Shown: positions 2,371-51,500 of the stretch, piece by piece
Position numbering within the stretch: the stretch's first letter is position 1
Layout: the number at the start of each line of letters is the position of its first letter
NCBI GenBank assembly: GCA_009761415.1
Contig: QUOL01000011.1
Location: 434,001 to 498,000, forward strand
Length of the DNA: 64,000 nucleotides
From: Sarcomyxa edulis
Taxonomy: Eukaryota > Basidiomycota > Agaricomycetes > Agaricales > Mycenaceae
Direction of reading: 5' to 3'
Translations under genes and position numbers: made by a program
Notes under the pieces: model-generated
Databases searched by the model: none
What the model saw: the letters and a program-made list of their open reading frames with translations, nothing else
What the model was told of the DNA's origin: nothing

Positions 2371-2705
2371 AGTATCTGGAAGGTAGAGAGAATCGATGCG
2401 CTACTGAGAGTTCAACTGACGGAGGCCAGAATGTCACACAGGTCACGAAATCATTAGACCGTTTGGTCACGTGACTCGCGATCATCACTTGCCTGGGTCG
2501 ATTGAGCCACAGAGCAAGTACTGATCTGGTCACAGATGATAATATTTATATAGAGTAACTGCAGCAATTGGGGTATTTGCGATTGCAACATTCATATCTT
2601 TACTAGTTATACTAGGTAGTAGAACGAGGGTATGTAGAAATAATGATATATTGAAAATGAGGAGACGCGCGAAGAGAACTCGCTCACGACTCACGAGGAC
2701 TTACA
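2371..2705. other. Upstream region of kinase-like copy 1
   Basis: No gene seen. It presumably holds the promoter of copy 1 (start at 2370 on the minus strand). An AT-rich stretch with a TATA-like sequence lies near 2545-2552, rather far from the start codon. Confidence 0.4.
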
Positions 2706-2845
2706 CTAGCTGGGTGAAGAGTGTATATCTTCCTCCGTTTTCGAGTCCTTCAGTAGGAAGAGAAAACTTGGATAGCGGGGGCTTTGATCTAGAGCTATGT
2801 TGAACGATCGATAGCGTCTTCGAGGGCGGCCACGTACGGGAAGGC
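2706..2845 (-). pseudogene. Relic of exon 2 of the kinase-like family
   Basis: This stretch resembles, in the same orientation, parts of exon 2 of copy 1 (about 935-1125). Both share the block around the RKRRK codons (text like cctccgttttcgagtcc) and the block gatagcgtcttcgagggcggccacgtac. About 60-70 bp of the intervening exon is missing and no reading frame survives. It lies directly beyond the stop codon of copy 2, so it looks like the remains of another family member or of an unequal exchange. Seen by eye only. Confidence 0.7.
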
Positions 2846-5111
2846 CATATCAAGGCCAAGACTCCTCACTCTCTGAATCAGTCGATTGATCATCCTCCCT
2901 ACTTGCGTGATGCGAGAATGGTGACGGTGATACCTCTTCGTCGACACAGTTGCCGTCTAGCACAGCAATCAATTTGTTGGTTTCGTAACGAGCATTGCTC
3001 TCTGAGATATCCATGCGAGCTCTATCAAAGTCTATGATAGCCACCTCACCGGTGTCTTCGTTGACGATGAGATTCGCAGAACGGATATCGCAGTGTCTGA
3101 CACCAGCACCGTGAATACTTTCCATAGCGACTAGAAAGGCAGAGCTAAGGAGAATCCATCGTCAGATTATGTCAAGCTTGCCTCGAACAACAGAGATGGT
3201 GTGAGAAACTGACCGCTCAGAAGGCGAGATTCCCGTCACTATCCTTGTGACTGAGGGCTTTTTACCTTCGAGGTACTCTCGGTCCCAAAGCGAAATCCCA
3301 CCGTGCCTCATGACGAGAGCAAGAGTATATCCCTCCATATCCTGGAAGAGACCGATAACGCTCATAATCCCTGTGACATTGGAAGCCATCATATGCATAT
3401 AGACGCCGTACTCGCGTTCGAGTCTGGTGCGTTGTAACTTGTTGAAGGCCAACTTCACAGCGACTTGATAGACGAAATGTTGACCGTCGGAAGTTTCTAG
3501 TTCCATCTTTCCGCCGTGGAGAATTCCAGTAGCCCCACGCCCAATGCGGGAAGTAAGTTGGATGGTGATGTATTCGTGGGAACGGTAGGACTGTTGATTG
3601 GAAGCAGAATTGAGACGCAGGAAGGAGGCGGGAGCGGGAGAATTATAGACACCGTATTGCAAACGAATAAATACAAGTTTTCGTTTGCGAGCTTCTTCCA
3701 ATAACTGTGAAAATAATCAGGATCTCCTCTGAAGAGGGTAGAGCTACCGTATACGTACTACAGCATCACGTCCGGAATTTGAACCAGCTGGTCGAGCGAC
3801 GTGAGTTTTTCTACGCTTTCGGGGCCTGCGCGCCAACTCTTCGGTGAGTGGAGAGGGCTTGGTTGGGCTCGGTTCCCTATAGGTAGGTTGAACTCCCCTA
3901 GCCGCATCAGCTTCACAATGCTGAATGGCACGGTCGATAGCATCCTCAAGGGCAGCAGCATGCAGCCCAGCGTGTAACTTGCCATACGGAGGATCCTTAC
4001 ATCGATAAGTTTTGATGAGTGGTGATATATATAGTGTCTGCGAGCCTCGATGTCGTATACCAATTCGTTCATAGTTTCCGCGATTGAAGATGATCACGGT
4101 CGCGTTTTCACGGACTGCCTCAGCCCAGGCCTGGAAGACGTTCAACAGGATTGAAAACATAACTACACACAAGTAAGTGGACTTACGTGCTGTAAAATAT
4201 GCTCTGGGGTAGCGCCATTATCCAGCTCTTCCCGACGTTTTCTAGCCTGCGCTTCTGACGGAGGGTAGACAACGTGAACATCTTTCCGCTGATTCTCAGC
4301 ATCAGGATGCGTGTCCCGATTCCGTCGAGCTGAGCTTTTGACACGGGAATTCGATACTACCTTAGTGTGCGCACGGGCACGCGTATTACACCATGGACCA
4401 TCAGCAAAAGCCCGTACAGTGGTCTGGGAGCTGACGGGTATCTTCCAAGGTACCGTCCGCCCATCAAAAACTTCCTTACCAATGAACGAGGGCAAAGCGC
4501 AGCCTCTAGTTAGACAGATTTGGGAAGCAAAGGACCTGGATAATGCAACATCATCCATACGTCTGAACAGGCTCTTGGTATCCTCGGATACCGGGTTTAT
4601 CATCCAAATCACCAGCTCCCGAAATCTATGCAGGACTTGACAGACGCATTCCTTTAGATCATCCTGGAGGGAAGGTGTAATCATATGGTTGACTTGAAGA
4701 CAAGTCCTGACTGTGTCCAAGGTCCACTCTTGACCTTGGGGTGTTTTACTCCAAACAAGAAGCGGCTTCCAGTCCTGATTGCGAGCTCCAAAAAACAGAG
4801 CACATGCTAGAATGCAGCAGTAGGTTGCAGTCGTATTCTTGAGGACAAAGGCCACGTCTTCAGCGTCACGAACAGGTCGAATCGAACCTCGTTCCGTCAG
4901 GCGAGCCAGGGCGTTTGGGAGCATGCGGATACCAGGCTCCATTCCTCGCTCCCCCATGGATTTAAAGGTAGATTCGACGGTCTCTGAGACATCAGGTAGT
5001 AGAGTAGGCAGAACTCGGATGCGTTTGAGGGCGAGGTTTTGGTCAATGTGTTTGTCATAGAACAACAACGGTGAGGTGAGCAAGGGGGAGGCGCCGGCAA
5101 ATGCCGAGACC

Positions 5112-5136
5112 GGGGGGGGGGAGGGAGGGAGGGGGG
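5112..5136 (+). repeat. G-tract near the left end of the 886-bp element
   Basis: A G10 run followed by AGGG repeats, potentially G-quadruplex forming. It is followed by a segment (ccgggaactta) that recurs after the second G-tract at 5879-5902, in the same orientation, making a subterminal direct repeat. Confidence 0.7.
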
Positions 5137-5878
5137 TCTTGAGGTCCTGACCGGGAACTTACTGTCAAGTATCATATGAGGTTTTAATGAGATATCTCAA
5201 GTGCTCTGGTAAGAATTGAACCTTCCAACGCGATTTGCAGCATTAGAAATGGATTATTAGCCCGAAGAGAAGGTATCGGGACCCACGTGGGCCACGTGGA
5301 CCGCCCATTGTGGAACTTGTTCCTGAGAGACGTTACGTTTCTTCCTCACGATCGTGAGTGGCGTCTAAAAATGGCCAAGAAAAAGAAGTCGACACAGGTG
5401 AGAACTTGTTCGCATCCTATGAACCCAACAATTCACCGTTTTTGCATCTTACATATAGCCCAATCCACCTACGACTACCTCGCGACACTGTGATGTCTGT
5501 CAACTAGACATTAAACTCGGATTCGGGGGTGACCAGAATTGGCATATCCACCTCAGTAGTAAGGCTCATCGCGCGCGCGACGTCGCCACCAATATGCCAC
5601 CACCGAACACAGGCATTACACGGTTTTTTGCGCGAGTACTGAAGTCTGAGAGTCTCTTTCTTCGGTGTATCATCATGGCAAAAACTCATATCTATCCTCT
5701 ATCTAGTACCATTTGGCCTGCCGGGGTCTTCTTGACCAGCCTGAGGAATGGTTCTGTGACGATGAATGTACCAGTAATGCGGGGTTTCGTGTAGCTTCAA
5801 GTCGAAGAAAGCGCCGTGGGAATAATTAATTGTGTGCCTTGTTATCGCCTAATATAGTAATAATTTCCCTTTTGGGAA

Positions 5879-5902
5879 GGGGGGGGGGAGGGAGGGAGGG
5901 GG
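5879..5902 (+). repeat. G-tract near the right end of the 886-bp element
   Basis: Second copy of the poly-G/AGGG tract, followed by ccgggaactac about 17 bp later, as at 5112-5161. The two copies are direct, not inverted, so they are not part of the terminal inverted repeats. Confidence 0.7.
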
Positions 5903-6124
5903 TCTGGGATGCCCTAACCGGGAACTACAACCTCGGGTGGGGGAATCCTATCTTGCCTCCCCCTTGGAGGTGAGAGGCGACGACGACGATTTACGATGTG
6001 CTCTAAGGCGCGGTGGTCTATAGTTCAACACGTCTTGGAGCTCATCAGCGACAGAATTGAACTTGAGCACACGAGTGGTAGGCTGTGGAGAATTGGCCGA
6101 GGAAGAGGAGTCCATGCTGTCCAT

Positions 6125-6247
6125 GCATCGACATCGTCCCGCGTGGATATCGGCGTGCTCGGGGTTCTTCTCCTCGTAGAAACTCCCACTTTGCTCCCAC
6201 TGTTAGCACGACCGTCATACCATTAGGATTATATCTAGTCCGTCAAA
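6125..6247. promoter_or_regulatory. Shared 123-bp upstream region of kinase-like copies 2 and 3
   Basis: The start codons of copy 2 (minus, 6124) and copy 3 (plus, 6248) are head to head with only 123 bp between. Any promoters must overlap. No clear TATA box was recognised. Confidence 0.5.
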
Positions 6248-8607
6248 ATGGAATCAGGCTCTGATTCGTCTTCCTCTGATTCGGAGGCTAGCATTCACCA
6301 TAATCAAAAGCTTACCACGGCCGAGGAACTTCAACGCTTATATGACTACAGACCACCACGCCTCCAAGGAGATCCAGAATCATCTTCGTCGCCTCTCATT
6401 CCCCCTTTGTCGTTCTACGACAAACATCTCGACAAAAGTCTGGTCCTCAAACGCGTATGTCTTTCGCCCGCGCTTCTACGCGATATCCCAGACACCGTCA
6501 GCTCTGTTTTCGAATCCATGAAGGCCAATGCTATCCGTCCTTCTTACAAGGGATTCACGACTGCCTTCTTTCGAGAGCACAACGCGTCGAGTATCGGACC
6601 TATAACTAATGCTGATGTTTTGGCAGATGTTCTCGGCAGAACGACAGCGGATTATTGTCTTAGCTTGGCTTGCACGCTCATTCTTAGTCCTCACCGCATC
6701 AAATGGACTCCAGTACTCTCTTGGAGTAAGGGTGAACGAGGAAAAGAGTCATGGGTGCATGATTCGGTCAAGGCCTGTATCAAAGTCGACGATCTGACTT
6801 TATGTGACCTTACCGATGGCCCTCTAAAAGACTCTGTATCTCAGGTCTTGGATCGATTCCCTGAGGTGGTCATTTGGATGGTGAACTCGGTATCTGACGA
6901 AGCAGAGAGTCTGCTGAAGCTGATGGACAAAGTCGCATCAGCCAGGTCGTTCAAATCACAGATATGCCTGACTAAAGGCTGCCTGGGTCGGCCCTTTGCA
7001 AATGAAGACATCTTTGATGCGCGGAAGGCTTCTTGGAATATACCTGCTAAATCTAGGCGACAGGTTCCATCCGATGGTCCGTGGCGAAACACTCGTGCCA
7101 GAAACGCCCGGCTATCCTCGGAAGCACCAAAGCCAATCGGTCGACGTACTAACAGCTCAGCTCGCACGGGTCGATCGGCTCGACGGATTTCTGAGAATCA
7201 GCACCAACAAAGTCTTCCCGTTGTATATCCTCCGTCTCGAAAGCAGACAGAGAAGTGTCGAGAAGAGTTGGATGGAGACGCTCTTCCAGAGCATCTTTTA
7301 CAACATGTAAAGTAATTATTATTCTACGCCTTGTATTCTAATGACCTGTAACTTATCTTAGGCATGGGCTGAAGCTGTTCGTCAAGACTCCACTGTGATT
7401 GTCTTCAATTGCGGTAACTATGAACGGATTGGTATCCGACATCGTACGACGCAGACACTGTACTTATCCCAACTCATCAAAACATACCGATGCAAAGACC
7501 CACCGTACGGAAAGCTACACATAGGGCTGTACATGGCAGCTTTCGAAGATGCCGTTGATCGCGCCGCACAACAATGTGAAACTGGGACGATCAAAGGTGG
7601 TCGGTCAAGCATGTCTTCCCACCAAGTTCCTCTGCACTTCAAACGTTCTCTCCCTGACGATGGACCAGCACACAGGACCAGAAAACGAAGGAAGCTCCAT
7701 GATGCTCGTCCATTCTCCGACCGTAACTCCTTTGTGAATATACTTCCATTACTTCTATACATGCAATGCATTTGATATAGATATTTTACCACAGATTCTC
7801 AAAGAGGCCTGCAATCGACAGCTCGCATTGATTCATCTGCGATACGGCGTCTACAATTCCCCTGCGCCTGCTTCGTTTATCCGTCGCAACAGCACATCTT
7901 CTACTCGACATGAGTACCAGCCCGACGAATACATCACCGTTGTAGTTGATTCCTACCTTGGGCACGGTGCTACAGGAACCCTCCACGGTGGAAAAATGGA
8001 ACTGGAAACTTCTAACGGTCAGCGGATTGTGTACGACGTTGCCATCAAACTCGCTCTCAACGATGCGGAGCGTACGAGGCTTCAACACGAATATGATATC
8101 TACGTTCATATGAGAGCCGCGAACGTGACGGGTATTATGACTATTTTTGGGCTCTTCGAGGATATGGAGGGATACACATTGGCTCTAGTCATGAGTTACG
8201 GAGGTATATCGCTTTGGGATCGGGAGATTCGCGAAGGTAATGAAGTCACACACAGAGCGACGACAGTAACACCTTCTGAGCGGTACGTTCATTGTGATGG
8301 TTTCCTGCATAATCTGACTATTCCTGCACACAGGGCTGCTTTCATCCTCGCTATGGAGAGTATCTACAGTGCTGGTGTCAGACACCGTGACATTCGTCCA
8401 GCGAACCTTGTCGTTCATGACGATACAGGCGAGGTGGGTATCATAGACTTTGACAGAGCTCATCTGGACATCTCAGAAGACGAAATGCGCGACGAAACCG
8501 ACAAACTCGTTGCCGTGCTGGACGGTCAACTTGTTGATGAAGAGATATCACCTTCTCCAGTATCATTCATTCAAACGAATGAGAGTTCTGTATCCGAGTC
8601 TGAATAG
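6248..8607 (+). CDS. Atypical protein-kinase-like protein, copy 3 (intact, 730 aa)
   Basis: Four exons (6248-7306, 7362-7733, 7795-8282, 8334-8607) in frame, with introns of 51-61 nt. It has the same architecture as copy 1: N-terminal unknown domain (IPPLSFYDKHLDKSL), GNYERIGIRHR block, basic RTRKRRK stretch, glycine loop LGHGATGTLHGG, AIKLAL lysine, HRDIRPANL and DFDRA. The last intron is a multiple of three without a stop, but its GTACGT donor, CACAG acceptor and the family alignment show it is removed. Start chosen by alignment with copies 1 and 2. Kinase activity is inferred from retained residues only. Confidence 0.88.
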
Positions 8608-36531: not shown

Positions 36532-38279
36532 TGTGAGGATGCCAGCATCCCCAGCCAAGGAATCGACAACTATACAACAACCTACTCTTATGCGACTCCC
36601 CAGACATAGCTAACTACAGAGACACTGGTGGTATTACCACAAACGACTTACTTTTCGAATGACCGAACACTGAAAGACACCAAGTACCCGCTACTTGACG
36701 GTTCCTCCCCGAAAGCGGCCTCTTCATCCACTCACGAAACGCTAACCCGCCTTCGGTCACGTCTCAGAACGTTTTGGAATACCTGAAATCACACACGAAC
36801 AACTTCTCCGAAGGAAATCTACCGCCAGAACCCAATTCCCTATCGTCGTTTCACCTGACCGAAGGCCCAATGTACTCGATCACCTCTCCGCAGCCCCCTA
36901 GATCCTTCGGACAGATCCCAAATCGTTTCAGTAGGCTCCCTTTCACCTCTAGAAGACCTCATCGAGAGATACTTCACCGATAAAACATTGCCACCAGTCG
37001 ACATACCGCCAACGTGATGCTTACTGCCCTGAGCTGTTCTTCCTATCAAATCGGACATATTCCCTTTACATTGTGATCTCAATTCACACCTTTCCATGCA
37101 TCTGGACGCCTCGTTAAGACCTCCGTCCACCCTGACCAAGTGGTGCTACGGAATATTCTTCCCTCTGTGTTTATCACATGACACAGCACTTGTAAGCGAG
37201 GTATCGCCCGCTAACAAAGACACTACAGGTCTCCGCCTAGCAACCCACATCAAATTCACTCTTCTCGGACAACTTTGGCCGTCGCATCTTGGAAAAATCT
37301 ATCGGAAGCTCCCCATCATCCTGCTCACTCGGACATGTTTCATCCCTTCACAAATTCACCTTGCAACGCTTTCAGAAAACACCTCAGGCCCTAACCTTTC
37401 ACACTGAGCGAGGTTCGGACACATCAAAACCAATACCGGATCTGTTTCATCATTGGAGATCTCGGGGACCTTGGGATGGCACTCGGGGTGAAGAATTAGG
37501 CAAGGACAGGGAAGGAATTCATATATAAAGTAGGATAGGACATGGAGAAGGGTAGATAGAACCAGTGTGGACGAGAACCAGAGGAACATACCCGAATCGA
37601 CCAACTACTCAGTCACTCTCTATAGGAATTCTATCTCTTTCTCACACTTCTGAAACCGAGACAAGGAACGATTACAGGAGTCGGTCAAAACAAGAGAAAA
37701 AGGACTTGATTCAGTCGGCAGTACCACTCGCGGAACAAAGGAAGCTCTCCGAAATCAGTCCAGAGCTGTCCGAAACCCTCGAAGCTCTCCGAAATCAGTT
37801 CAGAGCTGTCCGAAACCTTCGATAGCTCTCCGAAGACGTTTTACAGCTATACAAAGCATCGGTCAGCTCACCAAAAGCTGTCCGAGGCCCTCGTAGGTTC
37901 TCCAAGAACGAACTTATAGCTGTCCGAAGCCCTCGATAGCTCTCCGAAGACGTTTTATAAGCCGTCCAAAGCATCGATCAGCTCTCCGAAAGCTGTCCGA
38001 GGCCTTCGTAGGTTTTCCAAGAACGAACCTATAGCTGTCCGAAGCCTCAAAACGGCCTACCGAGAACGAACCTACGAGTCCGAAGCTTACCTTACGCCTA
38101 ATCATCTCATACCCACCTCACCACCGTTTTACGAACACATTATCCAAACACAAGTCACTGGGCATTAGGATTTCTCACTACGTAAAATCCCCTCCGAGAA
38201 AACGTCACCTTACCCCCTAGAGGCGAACTATAGTTAGGAGTCTAGCACATCTACTCCTAGCGCCGCAGTCCTCATCACA
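36532..38279 (+). repeat. Left (5') LTR, 1,748 bp
   Basis: Nearly identical to 46463-48210 along its whole length. Scattered substitutions are present, for example accgataaaac versus accgacaaaac. It contains internal tandem repeats. Open frames inside it show no motif. Confidence 0.92.
37741..38048 (+). repeat. Tandem repeats in the left LTR (about 40-bp and 114-bp units)
   Basis: Two copies of a 40-bp unit (gaagctctccgaaatcagt...) are followed by two copies of a unit of about 114 bp starting gatagctctccgaagacg at 37821 and 37935. All are built from the word (a)gctgtccgaa / gctctccgaa. Confidence 0.8.
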
Positions 38280-38281
38280 AC

Positions 38282-38299
38282 TGGAGCCCACCGCGAGGG
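38282..38299 (+). other. Primer-binding-site candidate
   Basis: TGGAGCCCACCGCGAGGG starts 2 nt after the left LTR. TGG pairs with the CCA end of tRNAs, and the complement (…GCGGTGGGCTCCA) looks like a tRNA acceptor stem with U as discriminator base. Which tRNA is unknown; no tRNA gene with this end was seen in the window. Confidence 0.65.
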
Positions 38300-38634
38300 G
38301 GATTGAAAGCCTCTTCTTAGGCCTTCCAAAATACCGCGATTATCCGTTAAAAATATCCATAAAACGACCTCTCCAAAGAAACTGCACCGTTCACCGTTAC
38401 CACCGTCAATAAATCACAGATGGGTCTCATCCCAGACGCTTCCTTCCAATCATAGACATCACGCATAAAAGGAACTACTTCTCTACCCTATCCACAGACA
38501 TTACTTCCAACGACTATATTAAAACGAATATACGTCTCTCAGTCTCCGAAATTAAAAGAAACGGAACCGTGGATTATTTTCTTATAAAAAATACATAGGA
38601 AACAAAAATATTACTTTCAATCCGAACTACTATC

Positions 38635-40369
38635 TTACGCGGTATCGGCCTCCTCCTCCTCAAAAATAAACCCGTACTGGTCCTCAACTTGCGATATTGC
38701 AGCGTCGATAACACCCGACAACTGATCACGGATGACCGGGGCGAGCTTACCGAAAACCTCGACACCAGCAGCGCCGTCAAGAATCCTGACCTTCAAGCCG
38801 TCAACCATTGACTTCCACTTTCCTCGGCGACCTGTGGCCTGTTGACCCTGGGAGACGGACGGGGGATTGACCGAGGAAGGTCCAGATGGCTCGACAATAC
38901 CCGTATCATCGAAACCTTCGAAATGACTCGCGAACTCTCGCTGAAGAACGGTCTTGCGGGTTTCCGGAATACGCATCTCACCAAAAGAAATTGGAATCTC
39001 GGACAAGGTATCACTGGGTGCCGACTCCGCAGCATGGTGACCACCAACGAGCTTGGGTACTACGAATAAAGAAAGCAGTAAATTTAAGGGAAACGCGATT
39101 CCTGGAACAAAACGCACCACGTATTTTCAAAGACGCAGACTGGGATCCTTCGACAACAACCGGTGAAGTCTCGCGAGCCTTTCCTTTCCCTTTACCTTTC
39201 GAAGGCATTTCTTGGCGCTCGCTGATAGTCGAAGGGCCAGGGAGACTGTTGGAAGTTTCGAAGACGGGAGCGGTTTTCTTTGGGGCAATAACGATTTCCC
39301 CCAGTTGAATCGCTTGGGAAAGGTCAAGGAGGCCTTCGCCCTCGTGTATATCACAGCCGATCCTTCGAGCAAAACACCGGTCGCAGGCGTGGCTACGATG
39401 CCCGTTGCAGGTCACGTTGTTCTTAATGCACGCGCTACAACGCCAGTCCTGTAAAGAAAGATATGGGGCTTAGAAAGAGTTAGAACAAAAGGGAGGAAAC
39501 GTACTAGGTGACGGATGAAATAAGGCTGATGGGCCTTTAGGATACGACCTGCTCTCTTTGAAGAAATACCCGGGGGTTTCTTGATAGGAACTACGCGAAT
39601 TTTGGAAGGACCTATAACTTCGACGCGAGGACGAACGATGTCGGTACTAAACTCCTCCCTTGGGCGCTTGACTCCGCGAGGATGCCTGACCCTCACTTCA
39701 GGAGACGATACGTCTCCCTCGGAACTCTCGGGGTTGACCGCGGAACCAATGGTTGCTGGGGGTGGATCTGTCGCGTGAACTGTGGCGACGCCGCTGGGAC
39801 CGGAATCGGTATCATCGGCTGAAAAGAATAAATCGAAATCAGTCAAAGGAGGACGGGAAAGCGGGAACTGACTTACCAAGCTCATCGATCTCGTCCTCGG
39901 ACAAGTTGGGAAACTCGGAAGTCCCCAGTATCTTTTCAAAGCTACCGTACCACGGAGCAGGAGTCTCTTCCTTAGCAGGAAGGAAGAGGGGAGTGCGACG
40001 AGCGGGGAGATTATATTCGAGCGCCTCTAAGAAAAAGTCGGGAATGACGACCAGCTGGCGAACAAAGCCAATGATATCGTCATCCAAGGCAGGGAAATCG
40101 TCGAAAGCTGGAGGAAACGGAGGCGTCCACCCAATGTGTAGGAAAGCCACACAAGCTGAGTGGAGCTCCTCGCGACTTCTCGCGGTAGCCGGACGGAGCG
40201 CCTCAATCAGACCATACTCGGCGCCTGAAATCCTCCGTGTCGACCTCATGGAGTCCGAAACCTGTGCTGGAACCTTGGTGGTAGGAAGGCCACCGGATAG
40301 CGCGAGGTTGAAGGCCTCAGAGAACGTAAAATCGGGAGCGACTTGTGACGTAGACGACGATAGAGGCAT
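38635..40369 (-). CDS. Zn2Cys6-like cysteine-cluster protein of the LTR element (gene A, 520 aa)
   Basis: Four exons: 40369-39877, 39818-39505, 39448-39118, 39059-38635, all in frame with introns of 56-58 nt. Around residues 272-300 there is a cluster C-x2-C-x6-C-x7-C-x2-C-x6-C (CSACIKNNVTC ... CDRCFARRIGC), matching the spacing of fungal Zn(II)2Cys6 DNA-binding domains; it is crossed by no intron. The N-terminal 160 residues are helical, with a WTPPFPPAFDDFPALDDD segment. The C-terminus has a helical, acidic end (IFEEEEADTA). It could be a transcription factor or a nucleic-acid-binding protein of the element. It is antisense to the LTR orientation and does not resemble genes B-F. Confidence 0.8.
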
Positions 40370-41187
40370 GGGAATAGTCTTAGGAGGTAATGGGAGAGGT
40401 GATCGAGACGCGTTTGGTGCTGGAAAAATGGTGGGCAGAGGGCGATTGAGAATTGATCGATAAAGTTCGAAAGTGATTCCATACCTCGGCGATCTCGTTT
40501 CGGGTATCTCCAGGCACGTGTCGATCTAATCGCGCTTCGCATCTCGCGGCGGCACCAAACAAAGGAGAGGCCGATGCCAAACACCCACTGGTAACCGAAG
40601 GATCGGACAGCCTAAAGGAGATCGGGCTCGATCACATCGAAAAACGAAGAAAGTCGAGACCGGAGAACAACAATCATGGAGATAAAAATCGTCGGAGCAA
40701 GCATATCCAGGCGAACAAGCACGATTGAAAATGAAATAATGGAAGTCATCGAACATAAAAAGTTAAGGGTTAAACGGTACCCAGGAAGTCGATAAGAAGA
40801 ACGAACGATTAAAGCAAGCACGAAACGGACAAGTTTGCGCCATGGGAGTCATAAACCCATAACGGATAGAGAGCGACGGCTCTCCTGTATACAGTGACGA
40901 AATACTGCGAAAAGACACGGACGATAAACGATCGGAAGAAATTGGAAGAAAAACGACTATGCGGGGTTCGGAGACGGTAGATCTGGCTGGCCAGCGGATC
41001 TACTGACGCAGACCGAACCCAATTATGCGCTGATATGATTAAAAGTATGCAACTCACAATGTTTTACAGATTTACGAGGAGACCGAGACGCTGGGTCTCA
41101 CACTATGCAAAATTATGAACGAATTATGCGCCTGTTATCAGGCATTTATTTTACAAGAGACAAGGAATCGGAAACTCATCGGACGGT
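40370..41187. other. Interior of the LTR element, no gene supported
   Basis: About 820 bp between gene B and gene A. It must hold the promoter of gene A and perhaps a noncoding first exon. No TATA box comparable to those of genes B-F was found directly before gene A. Confidence 0.4.
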
Positions 41188-42123
41188 CTACAGAATGGTA
41201 GTATCAGGTACCGCTCCAGCTCCTCGACGATTAGCCCTTGCCCCTCCGCGACCTCTCCCACGCGTCGCAGCGTTCCGAGGATCTACCTGTCCGAAAGCTC
41301 CAGGACCGAAATGAACTTGGTGGAGGCCTCCGAGACGAGGATCGGGAACGTCTCCATGAAGACGGACCTCTTCAAAGCCCTCTTTTACGGGAAACCTCGC
41401 GACGAAGGGGACAAGAGGATATTGAGGAGCGGGAAGAACAGGATTGGGAACGAAAGCCGCCCGCAATCTGAGCAGGTCGTTAACTTGCTGCTGCTTCATT
41501 TCGGGGAGCACGCCGTACACGTTGTACGCATCGGACGACTCAAATCCATCGAAATCCAGGGCAGTTCCGACGTATCCGACCTAGAAAAAGACGAAAAGAA
41601 ATAAATCAACGAAGAATGAGAACCAAGAAATATGTAAAACGTGCCTGGGCAACCATCTCGCTCTTCACCGACGACAAAAGATACCCAATGTTCCTAACGT
41701 TGACCGCAACGTAGTCCCCCTCGAAACCAAAGTTCTTCAGAAAGAACTCGAGCATGGCGACGGTAGTGGTGGCTTGAGCGGGAATTGGAATGGTATCCCA
41801 AGAGCCTGATTTAATGGCCTCGGAGGCTCGGAGTTTCATAGCTTGATGCTGGACGGACGATGTTGAAAGAGGAACGATGAAGGAAAAACAAGCGAGCCGC
41901 TTACTACGTAATTGACGATCCGGGTGAGGAGGGTCCTGACCCAGAGCCTTTCCTCGAGAGGAACGTCCGTCGGACACCTCCCATTTACGGAGAGATGAAC
42001 GATGCCTAGGAGGCTACGAATTGACCGAGACCAGATGGTGGTCGGAGACCTCTCATTTTCGAGGTCGGGATCCTGGGGATTTTCGGGAAAGCGATTTGCA
42101 GACAAACGGAGAATAAAGGACAT
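41188..42123 (-). CDS. Antisense paralog family, gene B (271 aa)
   Basis: Three exons: 42123-41905, 41848-41645, 41580-41188. Intron 1 is phase 0, at the same relative place as in genes C-F. Intron 2 starts with GC (GCACGT). After intron 1 the protein reads AMKLRASEAIK, then IPIPAQATTTV, NFGFEGDY and VGTALDFDGFE, matching gene F (PFPKEAVTAV, VGFSGDQ, FGVAFDYIEAD). The last exon adds a Pro-rich stretch and an RGRGRGGARANRRG tail typical of RNA-binding RGG regions. No named family recognised. A TATA box lies 52-60 bp before the ATG. Confidence 0.78.
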
Positions 42124-42174
42124 CGTTGATGGAACTTTACTGACTTAAGGATCAGAGCAAACGATTTGGGGAGG

Positions 42175-42183
42175 TTTATATAT
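42175..42183 (-). promoter_or_regulatory. TATA box of gene B
   Basis: ATATATAAA on the minus strand, 52-60 bp before the ATG at 42123. Confidence 0.6.
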
Positions 42184-42224
42184 GCAGACTACAATAAGTG
42201 GCATATGATTCTGGGAGCGTTACT

Positions 42225-42943
42225 TTACTCCGTCGTTTCCTCCTCCGACCCTGGCCAGTCCTCCGCGTCGCTATATCCTGCACCTTCGGACTCCCCCTCG
42301 ACTACGACAACGCGCTTAGGTACGACCCTTTCGAGGAGATCGAGACGGATCGATCTGGTCATCGCGCTTTCCAACGCGGCATCCCCGGGCTTCTCGTACT
42401 CCGGCCAATCGAAGGCATCTTCAGCCGACGCGTAAGCTGCCAGGGCGCGTATGCTAAGCTCGGTAAGAGCTCGGACGGCTTCGACCTCCCAATGAATGGG
42501 GCTTGCTGGCTGAATTCGGACAGCCCGACAAATCAAGCGCAAATGGCTGATCGTTCTATTCATCTCGGACGGAATCGTGTATAATCGTCTGTCCTGCTTG
42601 TTCAGGTCCTGCCACTGGCTGTGGAAGTGGACCTGTTACCGATCAAGTGAAAACCCGTTAAACGATAAGATCGATAAGGGTCGAGTTTAGACCAACGTAC
42701 CGCGAGGAGCAACACGATTTGCGCATTGCAGTAGTAGGGAACCCTCTCGCGACCAGTTAAAGCTACGAAGTAGCCATCGGGCCCGAGTTCACGGAATATA
42801 AAATCGGCAACGAGGCCGACAGCGGGGCGCAGGAGGCACCTGAGATAGTGAATCATTCCGTCACGATCAAGGATATCGAACGTTGCTGCCTCTTGGGCAA
42901 GAGTGTTCAAAAGGACTTGGTGTAGGGGTTCCATAATTTTCAT
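42225..42943 (-). CDS. Antisense paralog family, gene C (216 aa)
   Basis: Two exons, 42943-42701 and 42632-42225, joined in phase 0. The family core HYLRCLLRPAVGLVADFIF lies in exon 1. After the intron come a helical stretch and IPSEMNRTISHLRLI, aligned with the IPSE/VPSE motifs of genes D and E. The C-terminal end is acidic (EGESEGAGYSDAEDWPGSEEE). The gene ends about 100 bp before gene B starts. Function unknown; support comes from splice signals, a TATA box and similarity to its neighbours. Confidence 0.75.
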
Positions 42944-42980
42944 GGGCTCTGCGGTGACCTGTACGGAGGAATTGATTCAC

Positions 42981-42991
42981 CCTTTTTATAC
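42981..42991 (-). promoter_or_regulatory. TATA box of gene C
   Basis: GTATAAAAAGG on the minus strand, 38-48 bp before the ATG at 42943, inside the 85-bp gap after gene D. Confidence 0.65.
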
Positions 42992-43028
42992 TAAAAATAT
43001 CGCGCTATTCAGCTATCGGACACCCCTT

Positions 43029-43624
43029 CTACTTGCCCGTACCCTCCCCTGCCAACCGTATCACGAACTCCGGAAATTCCACGGCAACTGCCTCTCGGTG
43101 CATTACAGGGACGATAGACCAAAGGAACTCCTTCGTTAAATCCTTCCTCTTCACAAGTACATCCTCATCGTACCCGAGCTCAACTCCGTGATGGATAAGG
43201 AATAGCTGCACCATGCTTGCGAGGCGCAACGCTTCTGACGGAACCACGGCCTCGTCTCCTCGGCCAATTGCCGTCACCCTATCCCTAAACCGTAGAATGG
43301 CATCCTAGAAGACGTAAGGTTAACACTCCGAAGCTCACCGAGTGAACCACGGACGCCTACCAAATGATCCAACACGATGCGGAACCAGCCTTTCGTCTCG
43401 CTCCATATGATTGGTTCAACGGTGTCTCTCGGGGAACTCGTTATAAGATAAGCCGCGTACCCCCGCTCGACGATCTCCATCATAGGGCGGAGGCGGAACC
43501 GAAGGAAATTTGTAAAGCCCTCGGTAGGAGCGAAATCCCCGGCAAGAACTTCAGGAGGATGAGCGTACGACAAAAACTCGTCTCGGAGAGCTTGAGTAAA
43601 CGATGAACTAACGACATGCGACAT
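43029..43624 (-). CDS. Antisense paralog family, gene D (179 aa)
   Basis: Two exons, 43624-43361 and 43304-43029, phase 0. Exon 1 carries TEGFTNFLRFRLRPMMEIVERGY, the clearest example of the family core. Exon 2 carries DAILRFRDRV, VVPSEALRLASMVQLFLI and EFPEFVIRL, which align with ELIVAYRQRA, KIPSEVSRMMEFSLIV and EYPEFEDLV of gene E. Mostly helical by appearance, with no enzyme motif. No known domain recognised. Confidence 0.78.
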
Positions 43625-43666
43625 TTTGGCTGGAATAACGATGGCTATCCTGCGCCAGCTGGCGTT

Positions 43667-43675
43667 CTTTATACC
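43667..43675 (-). promoter_or_regulatory. TATA box of gene D
   Basis: GGTATAAAG on the minus strand, 43-51 bp before the ATG at 43624. Confidence 0.65.
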
Positions 43676-44685
43676 TCATCGGACTTAGGACTGACGTCTC
43701 GGACCGATAAGAGGTGTCCGAACGGACTCCGTGCAGCCACTGTTAACCGTTGGATTTTCCGGACCGTGCCTTATCAGAAGCAGTAAAGACGCATGTTCTT
43801 CGGTATAGATGCTCACGGAACGATTGCGAATGCCACATGCAAAAGAACACGAGCTGGCCGCCACGTCGCGCCGCTACCCTGGGACCATCTTTTCGACTAT
43901 TGTCGCAGGTCCTTGCCTCACCTGATACACTTCGCCGTGTCTCGTTCCTTCGCAAAGATTTCGCAAGATCGCGGTCACATCACCCGCACACGTATTAACC
44001 CGCACAGTCTCAACTGCGCCGTAAGAACAACGACGATCAGGACGCAAGCCACCTCGATCTAAACGGCCATGACTTCATGAAGCCACTGGCGCTTGACGGC
44101 TGTCGGCTTTGAGCGCTGTAGAAATGCAACTGCATCATCTTGAAGAAGAAAACAGCATCTTGCGCCGGCCGAGTTATTGAACGGGACGAGAAGATCATCC
44201 TGACATCGCATATCGGCGAGGCTACGGAAGAACGAAATGATGACCAGGCCACTGAGCGATATAGCGAAATGTAAAGGAGAAAAGCTCTGAAAGCATTAAT
44301 AACCTCTCTCCGTTCTCATCTCACTCGCCTCCCCTCTGAACTTTCCTCTCATCAAGAGCCGCTGACGGAGTTACGAACTGTCCGCGATTCAAATGTCTGC
44401 GCACAGCGGGTGGAATCATCGGACATCGGTACCCTTTATAAAGGAGGTTGGGAGGCTGCCCGAGATCGTTGTTGCCCTCCGGACTGACAGTGCATTCCAT
44501 AAACTACAAGATCTCTGAACACGGCACGCGAAAGGAGTGTTTACCCATTAAAGTACCAACGACGACAAAAACCCCCTCGGTCACATCCAGGAAAGCTTCC
44601 CCGCTACGCGTGCGTTCTGAAATGTGAATTTCCGACTATTAGTATCCCTCTGAGGGGCCCAAAGAACGAGACCGACGGCGCCTGC
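43676..44685. other. Interior of the LTR element between genes E and D, nothing supported
   Basis: About 1 kb. No further copy of the family core was found on either strand. A CTAAT branch site and a TTTCAG acceptor near 44,615-44,655 suggest that gene E may have a short third exon here. Confidence 0.4.
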
Positions 44686-45272
44686 TTACCAGAACACCAG
44701 GTCCTCAAATTCGGGATACTCCTTTGCCCCGCCAGTCAATGAAGCGTTAACGTCGGCCTCATCTTTTAGTGACTGAAGCATTTCCCTCCTCTGACCGACG
44801 CTGCTGAGGGCCCAGTCCCCGTGAAATCCGACCTTGTCATAAACGATAAGACTGAACTCCATCATACGGGATACCTCTGAAGGAATTTTAAATTCGGCGG
44901 CGTTGGCATCGGTCCTGGCCCGCTGACGGTATGCAACGATGAGTTCCTGCGCAGAAGGATTTTTTAGTATCTCTGCGTTGCCCCCGCTGAAAAAACGGTG
45001 GAAGCCCGTACAACGTTCTCGACGAAAAACCGCATAAGCCGCCTCGACAGCGTATACTGCCCGATAACGCTATCGGTGTCATCGGGAAATGCTGTCACCC
45101 TATGGGGAAGCGTCGCCTGGATGACACCGAACATCATACGAAGACGTTTGCGAAAGAATCCATCGAAGCCCTCGTGCGGATAGAACACGGGTCGAATGAA
45201 GGACGGGACGTTCAGCGTCATGAAGTAGTCGCAGAGTCTCTCGCGAGCCATTTGCATACTGCGGGCAGGCAT
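44686..45272 (-). CDS. Antisense paralog family, gene E (about 173 aa)
   Basis: Exons 45272-45012 and 44946-44686, phase 0 join. Exon 1 has HEGFDGFFRKRLRMMFGVIQ (family core); exon 2 has ELIVAYRQRA, KIPSEVSRMMEFSLIVYDKVGF and KEYPEFEDL. The ATG lies only 8 bp beyond the stop of gene F, and its TATA box sits inside gene F. The 3' end is uncertain: the reading stops at TAA at 44686, but a GTAAGC donor overlaps that codon, with a plausible branch site and acceptor downstream, so a few extra residues could replace the end. A fused F-E protein was considered, but no in-frame join with good signals was found. Confidence 0.7.
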
Positions 45273-45280
45273 TTCGATTT

Positions 45281-46303
45281 TCAACACGAAAGGACTCGTC
45301 GTTTATATGTACATGAAGACTGCATGCCCTCGATCACCTCTCCGAACCCTTCCCTCTTCTGCCGCCTCATGCCCCCGACAAGGTTTAGTCCCTGTTCAAT
45401 AATCGCTGCCCCGCCAATCAAACCGTTCCTCTCCTCTTCGGATAACGTCTCCAAAAGCAGGCGAAATGCCCCGTGTGTTGCCAAGCTGCGAGTGGCTGGA
45501 CTGTGCCTCTCCGATCAGCTCGTTGCCGCACCGCTAAAGTGTCAGAATTCTTACCGGACAAGGCCCTTTCTACCTCGGCCACCTCCATTTCTTCGTCCTC
45601 GTCGTCCGTTGCAATACTTATGACGGATATGCCTTCGACTTCGTTGTTAGCCGGATTCTCTTCCCCTTCGAGGCTGTTGCCCCTGTCCGTACTAATCGTA
45701 CCATCTCGATGTACCCTGGGACCGCTGTATGGATGCTTCTTCAACACGGCATGCGCATGGAACCGACCACGCGGGTCCGCCTCGATGTAATCGAAAGCGA
45801 CGCCAAATGTCGATCGGCGGGCATATTCTTCTATGAAGTACAAGATAACGTCGATCTTATGTGCCTCGTCCTCGTCCTGATCCCCGGAAAACCCTACGAC
45901 GTGGACACATCGCTGCACCTGGTAAACGGCGGTCACTGCTTCCTTGGGAAACGGCTCCGTGGTATCGTCCATGCACCTCCCCTTCAGTACCCATCTAAGT
46001 CTGAGCATGAATACCTTAACCTTCGCAATTAGCACGGACCCCCCTGAAAGGCGCACACGCACTCACCATGTGCTGGCACAAGATTTTAACGTGCTTTCTC
46101 AACGTGTATACACCGTGACTCGAGAACTCCGGAAGGAGAACGTCCGCCACAGCATCTTGAAAAATGCAGCTGACGACTAGGTGAACCATGGGACGGATAT
46201 TGTTACGCAGGTATCCGAGGAAAGTTGCCATCGTAATATCGCCATCTATCCCGTCCAGATCGAGGCAGCGCGTAAAGAAGAGTTCTTTTGCTATGGGATC
46301 CAT
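45281..46303 (-). CDS. Antisense paralog family, gene F (303 aa)
   Basis: Three exons: 46303-46067, 46014-45555, 45495-45281. Exon 1 has GYLRNNIRPMVHLVVSCIF (family core). Intron 1 is phase 0, with a GTGAGT donor, CTAAT branch and TTAAG acceptor; this acceptor was chosen because it gives FMLRLRW in line with AILRFRD of gene D. Exon 2 has PFPKEAVTAV, VGFSGDQDE and FGVAFDYIEAD, matching gene B, then an acidic stretch (ATDDEDEEMEVAEVE). Exon 3 is helical (GAFRLLLETLSEEERNGLIGG). Function unknown. Confidence 0.75.
45301..45309 (-). promoter_or_regulatory. TATA box of gene E, inside gene F
   Basis: CATATAAAC on the minus strand, about 29-37 bp before the ATG at 45272, within the last codons of gene F. 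Confidence 0.5.
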
Positions 46304-46348
46304 CTGGCTTGTTGCTTTCAGGAAAGCCCTGGCTGTCTTGACCTTGGA

Positions 46349-46356
46349 ATTTATAG
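46349..46356 (-). promoter_or_regulatory. TATA box of gene F
   Basis: CTATAAAT on the minus strand, 46-53 bp before the ATG at 46303 and about 110 bp from the right LTR. Confidence 0.6.
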
Positions 46357-46453
46357 CTCCTTGGCCGGTCGTCCTTGCCCTGTTTCGGTCACGGACACGC
46401 TGTTGTGTTTGCCCTCCGGATGATCGACCGGGGACGGTCGATATTTAAAAGTT

Positions 46454-46462
46454 AGGAGGAAG
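46454..46462 (+). other. Polypurine tract candidate
   Basis: AGGAGGAAG directly abuts the start of the right LTR (TGTGAG), where plus-strand DNA synthesis would be primed. It is short for a polypurine tract but correctly placed. Confidence 0.6.
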
Positions 46463-48210
46463 TGTGAGGATGCCAGCATCCCCAGCCAAGGAATCGACAA
46501 CTATACAACAACCTACTCTTATGCGACTCCTCAGACATAGCTAACTACAGAGATACTGGTGGCATCACCACAAACGACTTACTTTTCGAATGACCGGACA
46601 CTGAAAGACACCAAGTACCCGCTACTTGACGGTTTCTCCCCGAAAGCGGCCTCTTCATCCACTCACCAAACGCTAAACCGCCTTCGGTCACGTCTCAGAA
46701 CGTTTCGGAATACTTGAAATCACACACGAACAACTTCTCCGAAGGAAATCTACCGCCAGAACCCAATTCCCTATCGTCGTTTCACCTGACCGAAGGCCCA
46801 ATGTACTCGATCACCTCTCCGCAGCCCCCTAGATCCTTCGGACAGATCCCAAATCGTTTCAGCAGGTTCCCTTTCACCTCTAGAAGACCTCATCGAGAGA
46901 TACTTCACCGACAAAACATTGCCACCAGTCGACATACCGCCAACGTGATGCTTGCTGCCCTGAGCTGTTCTACCTATCAAATCGGACATATTCCCTTTAC
47001 ATTGTGATCTCAATTCACACCTTTCCATGCATCTGGACACCTCGTTAAGACCTCCGTCCACCCTGACCAAGTGGTGCTACGGAATATTCTTCCCTCTGTG
47101 TTTATCACATGACACAGCACTTGTAAGCGAGGTATCGCCCGCTAACAAAGACACTACAGGTCTCCGCCTAGCAACCCACATCAAATTCACTCTTCTCGGA
47201 CAACTTTGGCCGTCGTATCTTGGAAAAATCTATCGGAAGCTCCCCATCATCCTGCTCACTCGGACATGTTTCATCCCTTCACAAATTCACCTTGCAACGC
47301 TTTCAGAGAACACCTCAGGCCCTAACCTTTCACACTGAGCGAGGTTCGGACACATCAAAACCAATACCGGATCTGTTTCATCATTGGAGATCTCGGGGAC
47401 CTTGGGATGGCACTCGGGGTGAAGAATTAGGCAAGGACAGGGAAGGAATTCATATATAAAGTAGGATAGGACATGGAGAAGGGTAGATAGAATCAGTGTG
47501 GACGAGAACCAGAGGAACACACCCGAATCGACCAACTACCCAGTCACTCTCTATAGGAATTCTATCTCTTTCTCATACTTCTGAAACCGAGACAAGGAAA
47601 CGATTACAGGAGTCGGTCAAACAAAGAGAAAAGGACTTGATTCAGCCAGCAGTACCACCCCCGGAACAAAGGAAGCTCTCCGAAATCAGTCCAGAGCTGT
47701 CCGAAACCCTCGAAGCTCTCCGAAATCAGTTCAGAGCTGTCCGAAACCTTCGATAGCTCTCCGAAGACGTTTTATAGTTATACAAAGCATCGGTCAGCTC
47801 ACCAAAAGCTGTCCGAGGTCCTCGTAGGTTCTCCAAGATCGAACTTATAGCTGTCCGAAGCTCTCGATAGCTCTCCGAAGACGTTTTATAAGCCGTCCGA
47901 AGCATCGATCAGCTCTCCGAAAGCTGTCCGAGGCCTTCGTAGGTTTTCCAAGAACGAACCTATAGCTGTCCGAAGCCTCTAAACGGCCTACCGAGAACGA
48001 TCCTACAAGTCCGAAGCTTACCTTACACCTCATCATCTCATACCCACCTCACCACCGTTTTACGAACACATTATCCAAACACAAGTCACTGGGCATTAGG
48101 ATTTCTCGCTACGTAAAATCCCCTCCGAGAAAACGTCACCTTACCCCCTAGAGGCGAACTATAGTTAGGAGTCTAGCACATCTACTCCTAGCGCCGCAGT
48201 CCTCATCACA
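46463..48210 (+). repeat. Right (3') LTR, 1,748 bp
   Basis: Nearly identical to the left LTR, with the same ends and the same internal tandem repeats. Confidence 0.92.
47672..47979 (+). repeat. Tandem repeats in the right LTR
   Basis: Counterpart of 37741-38048, with the same 40-bp and roughly 114-bp units. Confidence 0.8.
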
Positions 48211-48554: not shown

Positions 48555-51500
48555 TTACGCCCAGTCCTCGAGCTCGTATGCCCCTCCGTCCTCCTCCTCG
48601 TCTACGTTGAGATAGTCAGGAACCTCGCCATCCTTCAATACCAGTGGTTTGTCTGCAAGAAAGTCCTTCAGAATGGTGGAGTTGAGGTCAATATCAGAAT
48701 CATCGATCATGAAGGTTTCGCATGGCTTGATGACCTCCGGAGGACCTAGCCAGTCCTCGTCACCATCGTCAGCATCATCAGCATCACTCAAGCTCTCACC
48801 CTCATCCTCATCAATACCCCGGACGACCCTCTGGATATCGTAGAACTTGACAATCGGGCGCGGGTGAGCATGTGCGCGAGACTGTTGACCGTAAATGTAT
48901 AAGTAGAGTAAGAATAGACACAATCAGCACGTACCTTGATCTCGCCGCGATAAAACGACCGTATTTGAGTCATGGCCATGAGAGTATCCACCTTTTGTCG
49001 ATTGCGCAACCCCGTGTTCAAGAACGTCACGACGGAGACCGATCTTTCGTCCGCCATGGAATGAGGAACAGCGGAGTAGAGCTTGATAGCGAGTGCCTAT
49101 GGATAGACAGGCATATTAGACTGGCGACGAAAAGAATTGACGGAAACTCACGGCTAGAATGCTCGCGTTAGGTACTTCACTCAGGGCCTCCCACCAACTC
49201 AGCGGTGTCTGATGTTGGGTCAGTGGTGCACTGAACGGATGACCGTGAAGAGAGTACGCTTTGAACTGAGATTTGTAGGCATTCGTGAAAGCCCGCTGTT
49301 TCCCCTTCCAAGCTGTGAACACAGGATTCTCGCCGTGTTCGATCTCGAGAATTGCCAAAGACAAAAGATACCGCCCGATTTCGATAAACGTTGCAGGATT
49401 CTTGACGCCCTCTGGAACTTTGGGAGGTGCTTTGCCTGGGATGGTGATCGAAAACGCGAGTGCGTTGGGCTTGCGGAAGATTGGTGAGTTGACATAAGCT
49501 GTAAAAGACATGTAAGTTCGATTTCCGAAGGGAATATAGAAGATAGCTTACTAGGATTGAGGTAGAATGCCGCACGGTGAGCATTGCTGGGTCCATCGAC
49601 AAAAAATTCACGCCAACGACTGTTGACAATCCCGCGAACCTGCGCCGATACACTATCTGGAAGCCCCGCAGTCTCCAGTGTGCACTTCATGTGAGCCGTG
49701 ACCGCGAGCCAGAAGAGGTAAACATCCGCAGGGTTGGTCTCGAGAGCCTCAAGGCACTCGATTGCTTTGGCAGCACCTTCTCCAATGGCAATGAGCTGGT
49801 TGAGGGTCAGTTCGAATTGAAGAGTGGCGGGTGAATTTCTTTGATAGAGATGGTTCCAATCCTGTAATACCATCCATAAGTAGTCAGCAATACGATAGAT
49901 ACAAGAACTTGAGCATCAGAGCGCACCTTGACCACAACTGAACCATTGGAAACAAGTTCTCGGATGGCGACTAAAGATCGACGAAGGGATATTGCTGACC
50001 AGATGGTAGAACCAAAGCGTGTCTTCCCAATGCTTTCTAATCCTGCGCCAAGATGCATCGCCTGCCGAAGTTTTTTCAAGGCACCTCGCCCCGAATTGGA
50101 ATGGCTAAAAAATGTTAGAGTTCCACGCAGAGGACCGATGGTCTAATAAACATATTTGGATGTCAGTGCCAACAATATAGAGCATCGCGAGCAGAAAAAC
50201 GACGTACTTCTTTGAAATGCGGAAGCTTGAGGATATCCTTGATCATGTTGTTCAGGTGATGGGCCGGGTCTGGTAGATTTAGCATGGTCTTGATGACACT
50301 GCAGATTATCTGCCGTCCGACACGAGTATTGCCAGTGTTGTCTGAGGATACAGCACAAAACCGTGACCTGCCAATGGTGTCCAACACCTGAGATAAGGCT
50401 CGGTGATGAGTAACAACTCCGGAGAAGCAATAATTACTAGAACGTACACCGAGAACATATTGGGCCACCCATTCACCTGTATGCGAGACATCGGTACATT
50501 CCTGCCCTTCCAGCAACATAACTCTGCGTGCTTTGGTGGTCGCGTGCACCGTATAGAACGATTCACCAGCCCGAGAGGTTCCTCCGTCGAACGAACACGT
50601 TATGTTCGTCTGAGTCTTGAGATGTGCGAGCTGCATTGTACGTACACGTTCTTGCTCCCCCATGATGTGGCTATCGTTGAGTGTCGTTCTCGAAGCAGGT
50701 GCATAACTGGGACTGGCGATACGGAATATATCCTTCCAGACAGTAAGATCGGCAACTGAAGGAGGGATTCCCGCGACGCAAAACAGTTTGACGATGGCAA
50801 AGTCGAGCCTTTCGGCAATTTGCTTGCGGCCCATCTCGCCAAAAAACATGTGAGCTGGGGTAATGCCTAGTTCGCCGGACGTTGGGGGTAGCAGAAGTTT
50901 ATTAGCAGCATCCGAAGCTGCGACTAGTGCTCCAGGTGCGGCTTCTCCACTCTCTCTCGATGCAAGCTGGCGTAGAGCTGGTGTTAGTTTCAAGCAGCGC
51001 TTGCAGTGCGACAAGACGCGGGCAGTGGTACGGGGAGCCCAAGTTTTCTCGCAGCCCTCGCCGATACACTGATGTTTCCTCGCAGTTATCGAACTCGAAA
51101 TCTCAAATGTGAGTTTGTCGAGAACATCCAGTCGAGGACGTCCCCCATTTGCTGGCGCTGGTGGTTCTATTTGCTTCTACATACCCGGATGGTGAGTTAA
51201 CGTCAAACGATTTTATATTTTGCCTGAAGACTTACTCGTTTGACACCCTTTTTGTTCTGCAAAACGGCCACTACCGAAGACGATGGCTGCGCAGGTGGGC
51301 AGAAAAATGCAGTGATGGGGTTATCGGTACAGTCAGACTGTCCGGCAATGCGTACTCGTTTTGCAGGAGGTTTCTGTGGGGAAACGGAGAGCCTTGCAAG
51401 TGTTTTGTGCAACTCGTCAGGCGTCGAAAGGTCAGTGGGCGTGCTAGGTCGAGAATCAGGTGGTGACTGAAGCACGGTCTCGCGAGCTACTGCCTTTTTG

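Follow-up and report, generated by a model that had tools for sequence, protein, structure and literature searches.

Within a 64-kb window of the Sarcomyxa edulis genome (assembly GCA_009761415.1, 35.6 Mb in 40 contigs; contig QUOL01000011.1, here C3, positions 434,001–498,000), we find a long terminal repeat (LTR) retrotransposon that has no pol gene and bears six genes, A–F, on the strand opposite to its own polarity. The element spans 36532–48210 of the window, and coordinates without a contig prefix refer to the window throughout. Comparison with its relatives in the same genome suggests that it is very probably the non-autonomous partner of an autonomous Ty3/gypsy sibling 17.5 kb long, with antisense genes that would be expressed and serve the element.

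Anatomy and polarity of the element

The element has a TG...CA pair of LTRs, a primer binding site (PBS) after the 5′ LTR and a purine-rich tract before the 3′ LTR, which together define it as an LTR retrotransposon; the interval that a first-pass annotation of this DNA had marked, 38280–46462, is exactly the interior between the LTRs. The PBS (38282–38299, plus strand) starts two bases past the 5′ LTR, and its 18 nt are an exact complement of the 3′ end of tRNA-Lys, including CCA. A 21-base tRNA pattern matched six genomic sites without mismatch and a backward control pattern matched none, and the four sites that were read all fold as tRNA-Lys with an intron. The purine-rich tract, as read from the sequence, adjoins the 3′ LTR on the plus strand (46447–46462). 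Because the PBS and the purine tract both read in this direction, the polarity of the element is plus, as the first-pass annotation had proposed from the same two features and the LTR ends.

Both LTRs are 1,748 bp long, lie on the plus strand and are 97.6% identical to one another. The 5′ LTR (36532–38279, TGTGAG...CATCACA) contains a plus-strand TATA box (TATATAAA) near 37522 and imperfect TCCGA-rich repeats at 37748–38079; TATAWA sites in the LTR number one on the plus and two on the minus strand. The 3′ LTR occupies 46463–48210.

An autonomous sibling with the same ends

The absence of reverse transcriptase (RT), integrase (IN) and protease (PR) genes, reported earlier, held up on closer analysis, with none of the genomic Pfam matches to RT (111), RVT_2 (34) and rve (85) falling inside the window element. 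The RT model PF00078 misses the RT of the autonomous sibling as well, and the stronger negative for the window is therefore a tblastn search with the sibling's own proteins, in which pol gave a best E-value of 2.9 on the window element. The gag and pol genes that make a Ty3/gypsy element autonomous, with pol domains ordered PR-RT-RNaseH-IN, are thus absent from the window element and present in the sibling on contig C1, the LTRs of the two being alike.

The sibling is bounded by LTRs at C1:2004806–2006553 and C1:2020540–2022287 (97%), enclosing 14 kb, and has the layout LTR-PBS(tRNA-Lys)-gag-PR-RT-RNaseH-IN-[antisense A′, then B–F]-LTR. Its left part, as read, consists of a PBS identical to that of the window element, gag-PR in sense, pol in sense and then gene A′ in antisense. 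The gag-protease frame (878 aa) matches PF13975 (5e-8), and its gag has a DUF4100 match of basidiomycete type. The pol frame (1,280 aa) matches the Pfam families for RNase H (1e-14) and the integrase zinc domain (3e-17) and, among PDB sequences, Ty3 Gag-Pol (7e-34), the RT/RNase H of 4ol8 (7e-26) and the integrase of prototype foamy virus (2e-13). The right 5.6 kb of the sibling are 98% identical to the B–F module of the window element, which spans 40861–46462 and is common to both at 98–99% overall and 94–100% in 300-nt bins. Left of 40861 the window element has no DNA alignment partner in the sibling except the leader. There, directly after the PBS, some 150 nt of gag remain as a gag 5′ end/leader remnant (38295–38456, plus strand; ~70% nucleotide identity, and 41% over 58 aa at an E-value of 0.002) that may carry an RNA packaging signal. 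The first-pass annotation had named gag-pol remnants in the interior as evidence that would speak against its reading; of these, we found the short gag piece and nothing of pol.

Sibling pol is present near full length at no fewer than 13 loci, at 96–100% identity and with a stop in one (36 of 175 candidates scored). Exon 1 of A and the corresponding part of A′ were each located at 15 sites and, in partial form, at one more. From these locus counts and the anatomy of the C1 sibling, the window type can be described as the sibling minus gag-pol, with an A lineage of its own. LTRs that match at 97–100%, the same PBS and the lack of pol identify it as a non-autonomous partner within Ty3/gypsy, in place of the distinct type of mobile element that had been considered earlier. 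Similarly, the earlier idea that an unusual gene cargo had replaced gag-pol finds no support in the sibling, in which the cluster sits between pol and the 3′ LTR.

Scans of IMG/VR with sibling pol and with exon 1 of A found no relatives. In this genome, further pol relatives of 29–53% identity, whose frames reach 2,103 aa, are among the matches listed on C16, C22, C12 (702753), C21, C13 (460864) and C4 (60565). An RT located between two family LTRs on C2 was considered as a partner and rejected, as it is part of a different gag-pol element that is inserted in a copy of the element studied here. In this region (C2:1481001–1507000), the copy is interrupted by the different gag-pol element, which has a frame of more than 2,600 aa.

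Antisense genes under purifying selection

Gene models A–F were built by hand on the minus strand. Gene A (38635–40369) has four exons and encodes 519 aa, and gene B (41188–42123) has three exons and encodes 271 aa. Genes C (42225–42943), D (43029–43624), E (44686–45272) and F (45418–46303) have two exons each and encode 216, 179, 173 and, as read, 277 aa, respectively. The nine introns measure 52–68 nt; in seven, all of the GT..AG type, a pyrimidine precedes the AG, whereas B has one GC-AG intron and the intron of F ends in AAG. TATA boxes precede the ATG by 35–59 nt in five of the six genes (57–59 nt in B, 47 in C, 49 in D, 35 in E and 52 in F), and the interior contains seven TATAWA sites on its minus strand versus 1.9 in shuffled sequence, and four versus 2.3 on its plus strand (50 shuffles).

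Comparison of element copies indicates that A–F are real proteins under purifying selection, and the frames are kept in nearly all copies compared, in agreement with the first-pass placement of all six genes on the minus strand. Frames are intact in all 14 copies for each of B, C and D and in all 13 for E, which shows zero amino-acid changes across them; gene D additionally has 31 near-identical genomic loci, none with a stop in exon 1. Gene A is full length in nine of ten copies and cut in the tenth, with insertions and deletions in threes and nucleotide identities of 76–99.9%. The length of gene F differs from that of the window copy in all 13 copies compared (window region 45418–45540), and the window F is therefore frame-shifted near its 3′ end.

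The ratio of nonsynonymous to synonymous substitution rates (dN/dS) of gene A is 0.12–0.18 at dS 0.59–1.01 in seven diverged full-length comparisons with the window copy (two with equal values) and 0.10 for the partial copy, the comparisons sharing ancestry so that these values are not independent. Two near-identical A copies contain too few changes to be informative (one synonymous and one not; zero and two). Summed ratios of nonsynonymous to synonymous differences (pN/pS) are 0.21 for A (ten copies), 0.10 for B, 0.17 for C, 0.08 for D, 0.00 for E and 0.11 for F, the last over the first 740 nt only. As a control on the reading frame, exons 1, 3 and 4 of A and exon 3 of B were compared in six diverged copies. 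In the gene frame, exons 1 and 3 of A are free of stops, their ratios being 0.12 and 0.16, versus 7–50 stops in the five other frames; exon 4 of A and exon 3 of B show six gene-frame stops, which we interpret as one terminal stop per copy.

Genes B–F look like a diverged paralog set. Computed within the set of six proteins, E-values are 4e-9 for D and E (26% identity), 3e-4 for B and F, 7e-4 for B and E and 0.009 for C and F. Pfam searches of A–F up to an E-value of 1 assigned no family to B–F and found no TRP28 domain (PF04195), the sole match being a sub-threshold one of A to Zn_clus. A protein-database search with the B–F alignment returned three short proteins, of which one equals the start of the window's gene C and two are gene-B-like.

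The gene A protein and the A/A′ split

Gene A encodes the motif C-x2-C-x6-C-x7-C-x2-C-x6-C, reminiscent of the Zn(2)-Cys(6) cluster, whose spacing is C-x2-C-x6-C-x5..12-C-x2-C-x6..8-C, and an alignment of 11 A and A′ sequences shows all six cysteines conserved. Because six cysteines in this spacing are common to A and A′, our best guess is that the product is a nuclear regulator. A weaker idea is that it might bind repeats in the LTR, where TCCGA/TCGGA occurs 20 times versus 5.4 in shuffles (none of 500 reaching 20), a count inflated by the tandem repeats downstream of the TATA box. CGG/CCG is not enriched in the LTR (52 versus 47.1, a value reached by 102 of 500 shuffles), and counts of TCCGA/TCGGA are 41 in the 8,183 nt of the interior versus 110 in 52,320 nt outside.

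The full spliced A protein had no homolog in the protein database at an E-value of 0.01 or below. An alignment of A exon 1, searched against 5.8 billion proteins, found four relatives, three at 56–67% identity to A and one at 51–54% to A′. A tree separates A from A′ with 100/100 support and places database relatives on both sides, so that the A/A′ split is older than the divergence from the sources of these relatives; inside the A side the order is unsettled, with nine of 13 inner branches open.

Copies, target site duplications and recent mobility

A genome search with the LTR gave at least 40 matches at 97–100% identity (the best 40 of 110 candidates scored), and a search with the interior gave at least 21 (21 of 38 candidates scored), of which nine, including the window, are full length or nearly so, three cover most of the interior and nine only its right 5.6 kb. 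This many copies excludes the possibility, raised in the first-pass annotation, that two LTR-like repeats merely flank host genes at a conserved single locus.

Target site duplications (TSDs), which the same annotation had proposed as a check, were sought in six elements with both outer flanks examined. Four have a perfect 4-bp TSD, namely GCGC and ACGC (C34), GCGT (C2) and ACGG (C8), and their LTR pairs differ at 0, 0, 1 and 1 of ~1,748 sites. The four comprise three pol-less copies and, on C34, a deleted sibling, so that 4-bp TSDs occur both in the pol-less type and in this deleted sibling. Near-identical LTR pairs together with TSDs show that these four elements have been recently mobile. 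The deleted sibling on C34 retains most of gag and A′ and has lost most of pol. On C8 (10786–27336), one copy is inserted in the tail of another, where its TSD ACGG falls inside the outer copy's gene E, and more family LTRs are found nearby.

The other two elements match crosswise. The window copy is flanked by GCGG and GCGT and a copy on C12 (C12:2607993–2619666) by GCGT and GCGG. Within each of these copies the LTRs are only 97.6–97.7% identical, whereas the window 5′ LTR is 100% identical to the C12 3′ LTR and the window 3′ LTR is 99.94% identical to the C12 5′ LTR (0 and 1 differences). The window and C12 copies have thus exchanged halves reciprocally, either by recombination, as a translocation through the elements, or by a swap in the assembly.

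Mosaic copies and older clusters

Copies on C11 and C38 (1738708) are 98–100% identical to the window copy over the A region. The seven remaining pol-less copies of full length drop to 71–93% identity with it in most 300-nt bins left of ~40380. Right of this point, the latter copies rise to 90–99% in the first bin and 94–100% thereafter, as do the siblings where alignable. In addition, the leader of the pol-less copy on C8 is 94% identical to that of the sibling over 176 nt. Such a mosaic is what would be expected either if co-packaged RNAs had recombined repeatedly or if gene conversion had taken place.

Genome searches with D, E and F, in which all candidates were scored, each gave the same eight diverged clusters, which are known by their coordinates. 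Identities are 40%/27% for D, 33–39% for E and 41–48% for F; the D-E-F order is kept and the exon breaks fall at or near the same places. Within 13 kb of four of these clusters (C12, C34, C23 and C16:312030–315295), there is a pol on the opposite strand that is 72–86% identical to that of the sibling. For the clusters on C4 and C2 the nearest such pol among the matches listed is 20 and 30 kb away, and for those on C9 and C16:7477–10742 there is none nearby among the matches listed. Since the sibling has the cluster between pol and its 3′ LTR and the eight diverged clusters keep the D-E-F order, sequence comparison identifies the antisense cluster as an inherited accessory region, with D-E-F older than this element family.

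Discussion

Our data suggest the following model. Transcription from the LTR promoter would give a plus-strand RNA that is packaged and copied in trans by the Gag-Pol of the sibling, and the six minus-strand genes would be transcribed from promoters of their own and spliced, as their kept frames, splice sites and TATA boxes imply. The introns of A–F would persist through retrotransposition because the RNA that is copied comes from the opposite strand and carries them in reverse. The products would be accessory factors serving the element, with A a Zn-cluster-like protein, probably a nuclear regulator, and B–F a fast-diverging paralog set. Partner and sibling would keep recombining, probably by template switching, leaving the LTRs and B–F uniform and the A region lineage-specific. 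The element was probably copied in trans by the sibling, and this is the best explanation of its spread given that the genome contains a gag-pol sibling whose LTRs and PBS are the same; the earlier suggestion of a gene cargo copied in trans can accordingly be kept as regards trans copying and dropped as regards cargo, the cluster being inherited.

Several observations weigh against parts of this model. Mobilisation in trans is deduced from shared ends and recent insertions, and the mosaic pattern fits template switching and gene conversion alike. Among the genes, no TATA box was found upstream of A, C is the weakest member of the B–F set (its best match being F at 0.009), the window copy of F has its frame shift at the C-terminal end, and outside the fetched copies E is fragmented at C12, where it also has a stop, and at a single C25 locus. 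The plus-strand mirror frame gives ratios of 0.25, 0.29, 0.38 and 0.15 in the four control exons, with 9–28 stops, and the dN/dS values carry the interdependence described above. For the gene A product, the Pfam Zn_clus score is 13.2 bits versus a cut-off of 21, a search against PDB sequences gave no match, and the predicted structures are of low confidence (pLDDT 41 for exon 1 and 49 for exon 3).

The introns and TATA boxes of A–F resemble those of host genes, and the lack of any retroelement Pfam domain in A–F would also fit a non-autonomous LTR element that acquired a reversed host gene cluster and now spreads it as captured cargo. We consider this quite improbable, as the same cluster resides in the gag-pol sibling, four of the eight diverged clusters have a related pol nearby on the opposite strand, and D, E and F, searched against this genome with every candidate scored, hit nothing but near-identical copies and those eight clusters; a very old capture by an ancestor of the element is possible. 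It is highly implausible that the antisense frames are chance or decaying relics and that the RNA alone matters, for instance as an antisense regulator. Antisense transcripts can indeed regulate retroelements, according to the part of PMC7264820 available to us, and both the frame-shifted window F and the broken E at C12 and C25 would suit such relics, but this reading conflicts with purifying selection on the minus-strand proteins, with indels in threes in A, with the absence of stops in the gene frame of two exons versus 7–50 in other frames, and with the kept intron positions. An RNA role beside the protein role is possible. That all six complete genes lie on the minus strand could even suggest that the element is of a separate class, with minus as its true polarity, a reading that is scarcely credible given an exact tRNA-Lys PBS and a polypurine tract that both read plus, and a sibling whose gag-pol is in sense to the same LTRs.

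The relation between the two element types could also go beyond one-sided dependence, with the pol-less element supplying the sibling with a needed product (an A-type protein, or extra B–F dosage) in a bipartite partnership. Purifying selection on A in the pol-less lineages, an A/A′ split that predates the database relatives on both of its sides, and the equal locus numbers of A and A′ (15 each) are in line with this proposal; yet selection is explained equally well if A acts for its own lineage, the sibling has A′ and B–F of its own, and the database relatives are short sequences. We regard such a supply relationship as unlikely. A long-lived split retroelement would consist of one segment with gag-pol, A′ and the cluster and another with an A-type gene and the cluster, A and A′ having acted since before host divergence as regulators specific to their lineages, of LTR expression or of packaging, for instance. 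We rate this version as rather doubtful; if true, the pol-less member would be maintained as a partner and not as a mere parasite. Setting these alternatives beside the non-autonomous partner with element-serving antisense genes, we favour the latter.

The array, the sibling and the diverged clusters together make it testable what antisense accessory genes do for a retroelement, a question of long standing. They also suggest how intron-bearing genes can persist in such an element, namely by lying antisense to the RNA that is copied. With its several very recent insertions, this genome offers a setting for the dynamics of autonomous and non-autonomous elements.

Relation to known elements

Large retrotransposon derivatives (LARDs) have long LTRs and a large interior without coding capacity; the window element departs from this definition in having six genes under purifying selection. 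The closest parallels lie in plant Ty3/gypsy elements. As far as the available portions of PMC11963269 and PMC7264820 describe them, Retand, Grande and RIRE2 have antisense open reading frames (ORFs) between pol and the 3′ LTR. In the same portions, PMC7264820 treats the antisense genes of LTR retrotransposons as ORFs without known function. The three plant elements resemble the family studied here in the position of the antisense coding region (seen here in the sibling), its retention in most copies and the existence of non-autonomous versions, and a DNA-binding regulatory role has been proposed for theirs. By these partial descriptions they differ in having one ORF or a few, which in Retand usually contain a TRP28 domain, and introns are unmentioned in the portions available, whereas here there are six intron-bearing genes, with B–F apparent paralogs and no TRP28 match, in a fungus and in a pol-less partner.

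Among fungal elements, Boty/BcGypsy1 of Botrytis cinerea has an additional antisense gene, brtn, as cited in the portions of PMC7264820 and PMC8365987 available to us. It is a single gene in these citations, and its comparison with A–F is one by description only. Rice Dasheng and its putative autonomous partner RIRE2, as presented in part of PMC5473765, likewise form a non-autonomous/autonomous pair with chimeric elements, and RIRE2 itself has an antisense ORF (PMC7264820, same portions). In PMC5473765 Dasheng is discussed only as non-autonomous, whereas here the partner keeps antisense genes under selection. Our literature search, with most subscription papers outside its scope and several sources seen in part, found no case of several intron-bearing antisense genes clustered in a partner without pol. 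For Retand, Grande and Boty, single antisense genes close to the 3′ LTR have been described; what is new here, as far as that search reaches, is an array of six intron-bearing antisense genes kept by selection in a partner that lacks pol.

Other features of the window

Away from the element, diverged direct and inverted repeats at 1057–8607 match one another at 71–80% in ungapped pieces and possibly represent a local gene family. A frame at 7828–8607 has a protein kinase match (PF00069, 6e-9), and another at 50163–51014, which matches DUF659 weakly and below the cut-off (5e-6), is possibly a transposase relic.

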